Shown here piece by piece: positions 24,352-46,889 of a DNA stretch of 64,000 nt. The notes below the pieces were generated by a model. The model was not told where the DNA came from and searched no databases. It saw only the letters and a list, made by a program, of their open reading frames with translations. The stretch's first letter is position 1. Each line of letters opens with the position of its first letter. Source of the DNA: Campylobacterales bacterium (GTDB lineage Bacteria; Campylobacterota; Campylobacteria; Campylobacterales; QNZT01); the NCBI GenBank assembly GCA_024278835.1, contig JAJRSK010000033.1:1-64000 (forward strand), written 5' to 3'. A program made the position numbers and the translations under genes.

Positions 24352-25301
24352 CAGCAGAGAAAAAAGCCATCGTATTTTTAAATATGGGTGCTCCTAGAAA
24401 TCTTGATGAAGTCAGCATCTTTCTAAAAAACATGTTCAATGATAAAAATATTATTACAGTTAAAAAGAAAGTGATTCGAAAAATCATCGCCACTTCTATC
24501 GTCGCTTCCAGGGGAAAAGAAGCCAAAGAAAACTACAAAAAACTAGGCGGATTTTCACCGCTAGTGACAGAGACAGAGAAGTTACTAAAAGCAGTTCAAG
24601 AAGAGTTTCCCCATCATATCGTACTCAATATCATGCGCTACACTCCCCCTTTTGCCGAAAAAGAGATTCGTTGGTTAAAAGCCAAAGGCATTGATGATAT
24701 CGTCCTTTTTCCACTCTATCCACACTACTCTACAACCACAGTAAAATCCTCTTTGGAAGATTTTTATGAAGCCTGTGAAAAAGTAGACTACACACCAACG
24801 ATAAAAGAGATAGCCCCTTTTTATACCAACCCACTCTATAACCGTGCTATACTAGAAACAATAAAAGCAAAAGTTTGCCTAGAGAGAGATGACCTCTCCC
24901 AAATGGATATCATCTTCTCCGCCCATTCACTCCCTAAAAAAATCATTTGTGATGGTGATTGCTATAAAGAACAGGTAGAGAGGCACGCCAAGATGCTTAA
25001 ACGCATGCTTAGAAATGAAGGATTGCGCTTTAAAGAGTATCACTTGGCTTACCAGTCTAAGCTAGGTCCCGTAGAGTGGCTCTCCCCTTCCCTTGGTGAA
25101 AAATTAGAAGAGTTGCAGAGCAAACGTGTACTCATAGTCCCTATCTCTTTTGTCTTAGATAACTCAGAAACCGAGTTTGAACTCGATCTTGAGTACCGCA
25201 TAGAGGCCAAAGAGATGTTTTTCCAAGATTATCGTGTGGCAAAATGTCCCAATGACTCCCCAGAATTTATAAAAACAGTTAAAGAGTTGGTAGAAAAATG
25301 A
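24348..25301 (+). CDS. hemH: Ferrochelatase
   Basis: Inserts Fe2+ into protoporphyrin IX, the last haem step. NMGAPRNLDEV at the N-terminus, metal-site His in FSAHSLPKK near residue 190, and the acidic C-terminal patch with SETEFELDLEYR. At 317 residues it has family length. ATGA overlaps join it to flgS and to the broken cvfB. Confidence 0.94.
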   Translation: MTAEKKAIVFLNMGAPRNLDEVSIFLKNMFNDKNIITVKKKVIRKIIATSIVASRGKEAKENYKKLGGFSPLVTETEKLLKAVQEEFPHHIVLNIMRYTPPFAEKEIRWLKAKGIDDIVLFPLYPHYSTTTVKSSLEDFYEACEKVDYTPTIKEIAPFYTNPLYNRAILETIKAKVCLERDDLSQMDIIFSAHSLPKKIICDGDCYKEQVERHAKMLKRMLRNEGLRFKEYHLAYQSKLGPVEWLSPSLGEKLEELQSKRVLIVPISFVLDNSETEFELDLEYRIEAKEMFFQDYRVAKCPNDSPEFIKTVKELVEK

Positions 25302-42565: not shown

Positions 42566-43224
42566 CGTAGACTATATATCCTTCTGTTTTCTATCATGAT
42601 AGAGCCATCCTCTAAAAGGGAGGCCTTTCGTAATGATACTTTTCTCCCAGATAGACTATCTGTATAGAAAAAAGACCTCGATTTCTCAAATTCTATCTCA
42701 TATTGTCTAAATATATCCTTCCAAAAAATAACTTGTTTTAGTTTTAAAAAGTACTTTTCAATTAGCACATTTTTTTCTATATTTACGTCAATTATTTCAA
42801 AGTCTTCAGGGGCATTTTTCAGGTTTATTCCCATCGAGCACAGTACAGACTCACCAGAGATAAGCGAGGTGATAGTGCCACCAATCTTTTTATCTTTAAG
42901 ATAAAAGTCATTAGGCCATTTAAGCCACACATGGGAACCAAATTCTCTAAGCACCGCTATCATGATAGAAGAAAAGTATATAGAAGTAGACGCCTGAGGT
43001 AGGTCAGAAGGTAACCTACCTCTAGAAAGACAAAAAGATAAAAAAAGGTTACCCTCTAATCCTTTCCAAACATTGCCTCTCGAACCCACCCCTTCAGTTT
43101 GACGTTCAGAAACGATAGCTAGAGGAGGAATTAGTTTCTTACCTCTAAGTCCCTCTTCTAAAAAACGATGTGTAGAAGGCAAGCTATCATGATAGACTAT
43201 CTCCAATACCCAACCTTTTTCCAC
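42562..43224 (-). CDS. birA: Biotin--[acetyl-CoA-carboxylase] ligase
   Basis: Attaches biotin to the carboxylase carrier. [12 protein letters not shown] at the start, the biotinyl-AMP loop GVGSRGNVW, WLKWPNDFYLKDKKIGG. 220 residues without the N-terminal DNA-binding domain, so not a repressor. It overlaps fmt by 38 bases, which is long; the overlap contains a TATCATGATA palindrome. Confidence 0.9.
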   Translation of the reverse strand: MEKGWVLEIVYHDSLPSTHRFLEEGLRGKKLIPPLAIVSERQTEGVGSRGNVWKGLEGNLFLSFCLSRGRLPSDLPQASTSIYFSSIMIAVLREFGSHVWLKWPNDFYLKDKKIGGTITSLISGESVLCSMGINLKNAPEDFEIIDVNIEKNVLIEKYFLKLKQVIFWKDIFRQYEIEFEKSRSFFYTDSLSGRKVSLRKASLLEDGSIMIENRRIYSLR

Positions 43225-44101
43225 GTAGATAAGAGGCGATATCTACCTCTTTTTTTGAGGGGGCTTGTACGCGTGTTATTTTGATAGCACCCTTTTTGCA
43301 GCCGATAATGGCATAATCATCAAAAACTTCAAGTATCTCACCCCGCTTATAGCTCCCATCACTTTTATAAAGTGTCAATGCTTTTAACTTCAAACCACTT
43401 TCACAGAAGATTCCTGGCCAATATATAAAAGCACGGTACTTTGCATCTAGCACTTTTGCATCCAAAAAGTCAACCAAGCCATCCTCTTTTTTTATCTTTT
43501 TAGCATACGACGTGTCCGCATCATTTTGTTTGATAGGAGCTATCTCTAGGTAGCTTTTTAATGTTCTTAATGTCAAAGAAGCTGCCAAGTCAGAAAGTGT
43601 AGCAAAAAGTTCAATAGCATTGAGTTTTTCGATATTAAGATAAGTAAAAGCCAAAATATCTCCCGTATCTAAGCCAACATCCATTTTCATCGCTGTCACT
43701 CCCGAAAACTTCTCTTGTGAAAGTATGGCATCTTGTATAGGACTTGCCCCTCGAAATGCTGGAAGTATAGAGGCATGCAGATTGATACAAGGTGCGATAT
43801 CCAATATATTTTTGGGCAGTATCTGTCCAAATGCCGCTACCACGATAAAGTCTGGATGAAAACTATTTATAAAGTTATAAGCTTCTTCATTTTTAAGATT
43901 TTGAGGCTGCAATATAGGAATACTACTAGCCACTTCTTGCAGAAATTTTTTGGTATGCGGTGGTGTTAAAACTTGCTTGCGTCCTACGGGTTTGTCAGGC
44001 TGGGTCACTAAGGCACAAACTTCAACCTCAGAATCTTCAACTAAAACTTTTAATATAGCTGTCGCATAATCTGGCGTACCCATAAAAAGTACGCGTATCA
44101 T
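43187..44101 (-). CDS. fmt: Methionyl-tRNA formyltransferase
   Basis: Formylates initiator Met-t[18 protein letters not shown], the SLLP-equivalent loop [15 protein letters not shown], and [13 protein letters not shown]. 304 residues. Starts in a TATCATGATA palindrome overlapping proB. Confidence 0.95.
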
Positions 44102-44862
44102 GATAGTACTCTTTTAAAAAGTGTACCACCCTCATGTCTACCCTCAAGTAAAAATGCACGTACATCAGCCAAATCAAATCCACTTGCCAAAAACATTTCT
44201 CTATCATGAGAGAGTAAAAAAGAGGCAGCCTTTAACTTTGTGACGATGCCTCCTGTAGCGAACTCATTGTTGGGAGTATGTGTCATCGCCAAGTCTTCTT
44301 TTGAGATATCATGCACGATACTTAACATTTCAGCATCTGGATTCTGATGCGGGTCATCGTCATAATAGCCATCAATATCAGATAAAATAACTAGTAAATC
44401 TGCATCAAAACGGTGGGCTGCGTGGGCGGAGAGTTGGTCGTTGTCTCCAAATACTAACTCTTCTATGCTCGTCACATCATTTTCATTGATGATTGGTAAA
44501 ACGCCATTTTCCAACAAGGTATCCACAGCTTTTTTGGCATGTTTGGTATGTCGTCGTGAGTCAAAGTCATCTGATCCAAGTAAGAGTTGAGCAACGATGA
44601 TGCCATTTTTTTCAAAAATATCTTGATAGACGGAGATAAGATAAGGTTGACCTACCGCAGCAATAGCCTGTTTATTTCCTAGTAGTGTCTTATCTAATTT
44701 TAACTTCGTATGTCCAGCAGCAACCGCACCGGAAGAGACCAAAATGACTTCGTGATTCACCATCAAATCCGCTAAAAATGCACACAAGTTTTCTATACGC
44801 CTCATCGCTAACTTACCATCTTGGTTCAATACATGAGAACCGACTTTTATGACAATTCGCAT
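44098..44862 (-). CDS. proB: Glutamate 5-kinase
   Basis: First step of proline synthesis. [11 protein letters not shown] near residue 42, the [20 protein letters not shown] substrate site, [10 protein letters not shown]. 254 residues: the kinase domain only, lacking the PUA domain of E. coli ProB, as in other Campylobacterota. Confidence 0.94.
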
Positions 44863-44864
44863 CG

Positions 44865-45968
44865 TTAGTCCTCTTGAGATTCTTTCACATGATTAACCAC
44901 TTCTAAAAGTGCATACTTAAACGGATCAATATTGAGACGAACCACAGAAGAGATAGGTGCTATAAAAAAGGGCTCTGCACTATCGTAGTCATCGATATCT
45001 TGTATATGCATAGGATACTTGTCTAAAAATTTATAAATATTGTCTTTCTTATCAACTTTTTTATCCAAACTTTTAATAAATTCTTCAATTCGTTCATCTA
45101 CATCATCTACACTCGCTGCATCTACCCTCGTTAAAGCAATAGCATAGTTTCTATCTTTAAGCCTATCTGAAAATTTTGCTATCTCCTCTTTTAAGACACG
45201 GTACTGTTCTTCAAGCGGACGATAATTTGCCATATCTAACATGAAAAGTAAAAACTTTGTTCGCTCGATATGTTTTAAAAACTCTAAACCAAGTCCACGT
45301 CCATCACTAGCCCCTTAGATAATCCCCGGGATATCTGCCATCACAAACGAAGCAAAATCATCTGTACTTACCACACCAAGTTTTGGCGTAAGCGTTGTAA
45401 ACTCATAGTTTGCTATCTCAGGTCGGGCATTGGATATCGTAGAAATAAGCGTTGATTTACCGACATTTGGCACACCAACTAAACCCACATCTGCGATGAG
45501 TTTTAACTCTAACCTTACCGTACGCACTTCTCCTGGAAGTCCCGGTTGTGAATAAGAAGGTCTTTGATTGGTTGAACTTCTAAAGTGCCAGTTTCCTAGC
45601 CCCCCTTTTCCACCCTCAAGAAACTTTACACGGTACCCATCATCTACCAAATCAAGCAATACATCACCAGTCAATACATCGATGACCTGTGTACCTGGTG
45701 GCACAACCACATCTATAGACTGACCTTTTTTACCAGATTTTTTACGCCCCTCACCCGGTGCACCATTTTTGGCTTTCATATGGTGACGTCCTCGAAATGA
45801 GGAGAGTGTATGAGAGTTTTTATCTACGACAAAGTACACATCACCACCACGTCCGCCATCCCCTCCGTCAGGACCGCCTTTTAAAACAAATTTTTCTTGA
45901 CGAAATGACGTAGCCCCTGGGCCACCTTTTCCTGAACTGAGTTGTATCTCTGCGTTATCGATGAACAT
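44865..45968 (-). pseudogene. obgE: GTPase ObgE interrupted by an in-frame TAA
   Basis: Obg is an essential ribosome-assembly and stress GTPase. The Obg fold ([17 protein letters not shown]) and G1 [13 protein letters not shown] are normal, but at 45315-45317 the G3 motif DIPGII is followed by TAA where the family has Glu (DIPGIIEGAS). The same frame then resumes GASDGRGLGLEFLKHIERTK through G4 LTRVDA to the stop at 44865. The joined frame is 367 residues, full family length. One G-to-T change (GAA to TAA) explains it. A stop inside the G domain of an essential gene makes sequence error the likelier explanation. Confidence 0.9.
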
Positions 45969-46083
45969 GCGTATAAGCCTTAATATAGTTAATAGTGTAT
46001 TTTATAGAAGTATGGGTAAATATATGCTTGGAGTATTAAATCAACACCTGAGGCATATACCCAAGTGTTGATAGGTGTGTCAC
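45969..46083. other. obgE-rplU gap with an inverted repeat and no rpmA
   Basis: Only 115 bases separate rplU from obgE. TCAACAC and GTGTTGA form arms around a 17-base loop near 46040-46071. In most bacteria the 85-residue L27 gene rpmA sits exactly here; no L27 codons are present on either strand. Confidence 0.6.
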
Positions 46084-46389
46084 TTAGCTAATCTTAGCGA
46101 CTTTGACTCTTGTGTATTCTCTTCTAAAACCTTTTTTAAGTTTAGAATCTTTTCTTCTTCTCTTTTTCCAGATAATTACTTTTTTATCCTTTCCATGAGT
46201 GACTACTTCAAGCTCAACTTTTGCACCTTTTACAAATGGTGTACCAATAGTAAGTTCTCCGTTATTAACTGCGAGTACTTCTTCGATAACGATTTTGTCT
46301 TTCGGCGAAGCGTCAAGTTTATCGAGATTTAAATAATCCCCTTCTTGAACTTTATATTGCTTTCCACCGTTTTTAATGATAGCGTACAT
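46084..46389 (-). CDS. rplU: 50S ribosomal protein L21
   Basis: 101 residues opening [20 protein letters not shown], with [22 protein letters not shown] at the end in the style of L21. Normally followed by rpmA, absent here. Confidence 0.97.
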
Positions 46390-46499: not shown

Positions 46500-46889
46500 T
46501 TAAAAGGAGTAGCTATGCTCAGCTATCGCAATAGCATCAATCTCTACATCAACATTTTTAGGCAACGTTTTCACTGCCACCGTGGTACGCGCAGGATACG
46601 AACCTGAGAAATACTCCCCATAGACTGTATTTACTGCAATAAAATCATCCATATCCGTCAAATAAATAGTCGTTTTGATAATCTGCTGTAAACTGCTTCC
46701 AGCTGCTTCTAAAACTTGTTCTAAGTTATTTAATATCTGTCTTACCTGATCATGAATATCCCCCGAAACTAACTCCCCTTCTGCTGTCATCGGAATTTGA
46801 CCTGAGGTATAAACCATATTTCCAACTTTCACCGCTTGTGAGTATGGGCCAATGGCTGCTGGTGCTTTATCTGTCTGTATTCTTTGCAT
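46500..46889 (-). CDS. ridA: RidA enamine/imine deaminase
   Basis: Removes reactive 2-aminoacrylate. APAAIGPYSQAVKVGNMVYTSGQIP and the active-site Arg in YPARTTVAVKTLP are intact. 129 residues. Appears monocistronic, with AAGGAAG as ribosome site. Confidence 0.94.
   Translation of the reverse strand: MQRIQTDKAPAAIGPYSQAVKVGNMVYTSGQIPMTAEGELVSGDIHDQVRQILNNLEQVLEAAGSSLQQIIKTTIYLTDMDDFIAVNTVYGEYFSGSYPARTTVAVKTLPKNVDVEIDAIAIAEHSYSF

Follow-up and report, generated by a model that had tools for sequence, protein, structure and literature searches.

The stretch of Campylobacterales DNA that we analyzed (the window, 64,000 nucleotides) carries rplU, the gene for ribosomal protein L21, directly upstream of obg, with no gene for ribosomal protein L27 (rpmA) between them. 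Has L27 been lost from this organism, is its absence produced by a local deletion or a fault in the assembly, or is the protein encoded somewhere else in the genome? The classical Campylobacterota cluster is ridA-rplU-rpmA-obg-proB-fmt (e.g., in metagenome-assembled genomes (MAGs) of Sulfurospirillum sp. (L063, from rplU on), Sulfuricurvum sp. (L072), and Sulfurovum sp. (L094, L095, and L097)). The window matches this cluster in gene content, order, and strand (Table 1), with a ridA-like gene, rplU, obg, proB, and fmt on the minus strand, but it is without rpmA, so that rplU and obg are neighbors. Thus, rplU and obg are co-oriented and clustered with proB and fmt as in the classical operon, whereas rpmA, which in that operon lies directly downstream of rplU, is located on another contig in this genome. 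The gene names fmt and ridA-like are presumed from the respective protein families, and the name proB from its context as well as its family. In almost every member of the bacterial family to which the window belongs, and in many classical relatives, the ridA-like gene adjoins rplU; the rplU in the window is the sole copy in the genome.

Table 1. Features of the rplU-obg region of the window.
Feature	Position	Strand	Evidence and remarks
ridA-like gene, upstream of rplU	46500..46889	-	ORF; conserved neighbor
rplU, ribosomal protein L21	46084..46389	-	101 aa, intact; Pfam PF00829, E 9.1e-35, positions 1-99 of 99
rplU/obg spacer	45969..46083		Most relatives carry rpmA here; a single modest hairpin and no remnant of L27
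obg (obgE/cgtA), GTPase gene	44865..45968	-	Translation; complete apart from a TAA in frame at 45315-45317
proB, glutamate 5-kinase without PUA domain	44098..44862	-	ORF; order as in G001 and classical relatives
fmt, methionyl-tRNA formyltransferase	43187..44101	-	ORF; conserved order; end of the compared stretch

The first-pass annotation had placed a gap of 115 bases where rpmA was expected, and this description is confirmed: on the minus strand rplU terminates at 46084 with its stop codon and obg begins with an ATG at 45968, the spacer between them is exactly 115 bases long, and it contains no L27 reading frame. A tblastn search of the rplU-obg stretch (locus L057) with the L27 of the same genome as the query identified no L27 remnant, and the spacer has no match elsewhere in its own genome. 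In place of these 115 bases, the sister species G001 has 272 and G002 has ~40; because the spacer differs among the three genomes in both length and contents, its content is not conserved. The window spacer includes a near-perfect inverted repeat (46028-46072; ATCAACACTTGGG / CCTCAGGTGTTGAT) that lacks a T-run and is found once in the genome; the resulting hairpin is modest, with ordinary stability (−22.8 kcal/mol for a 132-nt fold; z = −1.43), and was not flagged by a terminator scan. We considered this hairpin as a conserved element or an intrinsic terminator and rejected both, given its z-value, the result of the scan, its single occurrence, and the different spacer contents in G001 and G002. 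The 272-base spacer of G001 carries inverted repeats of its own that are unlike those of the window.

The remainder of the assembly (2.51 Mb in 77 contigs; completeness 99.99) was searched with the Pfam L27 family, and a single rpmA was identified at positions 24944-25204 of contig 39 (C39), in the interior of a contig of 31.4 kb. The gene runs uninterrupted from its ATG to its stop codon and encodes 86 aa beginning with MAHKKGQG; the L27 domain (24947-25186) is complete (PF01016, positions 1-79 of 79; 129.4 bits against a curated cutoff of 20.5; E 5.3e-38), and the N-terminal tail (MAHKKG...) that reaches towards the peptidyl transferase center is present with no break in the frame. As judged by its sequence, this is the gene for the bacterial ribosomal protein bL27. 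Its neighbors are mrp (PF10609), which converges on it from downstream, and a diverging gene for a Pyr_redox_2 flavoprotein upstream, followed by proA and the gene for an ABC ATPase; we saw no genes of mobile elements in the vicinity of rpmA. The sister species G001, whose Obg is 87% identical, has the same arrangement, with rplU-obg-proB-fmt in one place and mrp-rpmA-flavoprotein in another; its L27, encoded between mrp and the matching oxidoreductase gene, is 96% identical to the L27 encoded by C39.

We then compared the positions of the L27 and L21 genes in 59 genomes, including 22 from the family of the window (six genera; all of the genomes are drafts). In the family, rpmA was found in 19 of the 22 genomes, including all of those of good quality (11/11); the three without a match are 57%, 65%, and 87% complete. 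The two genes are located on different contigs in each of the 18 family genomes in which both were found, all of them drafts, whereas the 37 genomes that represent 22 other families in the order all carry them side by side on the same strand. The latter arrangement also is the only one among the relatives obtained from an independent collection of named genomes, from which records close to the genome of the window may have been omitted: rplU is directly upstream of rpmA in 36 named Campylobacterota loci that include Sulfurospirillum, Sulfurovum, Sulfurimonas, Sulfuricurvum, Arcobacter, Helicobacter, Campylobacter, and Nautiliaceae. Within the family, mrp is located beside rpmA in many members, and the proA-ABC ATPase pair is beside it in most of the genera that we inspected; the recurrence of these neighbors indicates that the new site is shared and is not an accident of binning. 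In genus g6 other genes are found upstream of rpmA, so a second move within the family is possible. Arcobacter-type loci (L073, L089, and L090) also have apparent mrp matches close to the cluster; we take these to be ParA/Soj paralogues and set them aside as evidence on the move of rpmA.

These observations decide among the explanations that the first-pass annotation had offered for the gap, that is, deletion, assembly collapse, or relocation: relocation stands and the other two fall, given the intact rpmA on C39 and the presence of the gap in both G001 and G002. The discovery of rpmA elsewhere, both in this genome and in sister genomes, likewise refutes the loss of the gene. The local gap is all that would favor a true loss, with a ribosome that works without L27, and we regard this as wildly improbable when the assembly itself carries an uninterrupted rpmA whose product has the L27 domain in full; nor is C39 readily dismissed as a contaminant, because G001 matches its arrangement in both the sequence of L27 and the mrp and oxidoreductase neighbors. 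A local assembly collapse or deletion artefact that removed rpmA from the window might be suspected from the other apparent consensus faults in this assembly (the stop codon in obg and a frameshift in proA; vide infra). However, G001 and G002, which were assembled independently, likewise proceed from rplU to obg without rpmA, and in both the gene is located elsewhere; the repetition of the window arrangement in G001 is strong evidence against both collapse and contamination, and we assign such an artefact a negligible probability.

The family is monophyletic in both the Obg tree and the rplU+obg tree (support 0.94) and in both is nested among lineages of the order with the classical arrangement; rpmA therefore most likely moved once, on the stem of the family, and this single event is the simplest account. 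The tree calculated from L27 alone (86 aa) is without resolution, the protein being too short for a test of descent, and to this extent it leaves room for a history in which the native rpmA was lost and horizontal transfer supplied a replacement at the mrp/proA site. The L27 from C39, however, is 76-90% identical to other Campylobacterota L27s and ~70% identical to those from Alphaproteobacteria, and its surroundings lack visible mobile-element genes, so we judge a replacement of this type to be very unlikely; a transfer from within the phylum is conceivable as the source of the relocated gene. Vertical descent of rpmA is suggested by the 76-90% identity rather than by a well-supported L27 clade.

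A relocated rpmA that stands alone needs its own promoter. In 15 of 18 family members the sequence TATAAT-N1-3-CG occurs within 150 nt upstream of rpmA, at a position ~40-54 bases before the start codon; the same pattern is present in 1.6% of shuffled sequences and in none of the 36 classical genomes (0/36), in which rpmA closely follows rplU. We infer from this pattern that it drives the expression of rpmA. We are highly confident in the relocation, that is, that rpmA left the rplU-rpmA-obg cluster once, in the ancestor of this Campylobacterales family, and is now a single-gene unit near mrp and proA with a predicted promoter of its own. With this arrangement, the move out of the cluster in the common ancestor would have made rpmA a separate transcription unit at the new site; L27 would be produced from its own promoter, no longer cotranscribed with L21, and would be made normally from the separate transcript.

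Ribosomal-protein operons are well known to break up in evolution through the relocation of genes, and the present case resembles these events in the intact gene, the new site, and the promoter-like sequence that accompanies it; we find no substantial difference from such breakups generally, and the case here is an exception confined to one family within an order. The move of the L27 gene is an ordinary, ancient, and family-wide relocation and not a loss. We lean toward a broader reading, with some reservation, in which one Campylobacterales family has uncoupled the gene for L21 from that for L27 and placed the two under separate (predicted) promoters, with obg later leaving in most genera, so that L27 could be regulated apart. 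If this is correct, one of the more stable pairings of ribosomal genes has been lost in a specific lineage. The separation of rplU and rpmA also provides a usable gene-order marker for the family, and it illustrates that a gene missing from a conserved operon can signify an old, lineage-wide relocation instead of a loss.

The finding has no bearing on whether ribosomes function without L27. On that subject, the assertion that accompanied the original observation, that loss of L27 severely weakens peptidyl transfer in Escherichia coli, is outdated, although the deletion strains are sick. Ribosomes from E. coli without L27 form peptide bonds at a normal rate, and the severe phenotype of the deletion has been ascribed to subunit association (PMC4647459) or, in a preprint, to interference by unrestrained tmRNA-SmpB (PMC12871816).

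The assembly contains two apparent lesions. The in-frame TAA in the window obg (minus strand; Table 1) is located in the switch II region of a frame that otherwise is open (367 residues); the 15 other family genomes that we read have a Glu or Gly codon at this position, and the assembly contains no second copy of obg. In contig 39, the proA near the relocated rpmA is frameshifted (L142:4280-5514; ORFs of 112 and 314 aa) and is intact in the relative G003. Obg is essential in the bacteria in which it has been most extensively tested, so the TAA is likelier to be a consensus error in the draft, or a minority or strain variant, than a real loss; a genuine lesion in this essential GTPase would be surprising. 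Together, the TAA and the frameshift suggest consensus errors of the assembly as the likeliest cause.

In the family, the whole rplU-obg cluster is dissolving. The obg gene still adjoins rplU in G000 and G001 (genus g1) and in G002 (g2) and is located away from it in four of the six genera (g3-g6; loci L163-L179): in g4, g5, and g6 it is on a different contig than rplU wherever it was found, and in g3 it is ~4-6 kb from rplU, with other genes inserted. Some of the genes inserted in g3 resemble polysaccharide/glycosyltransferase genes.
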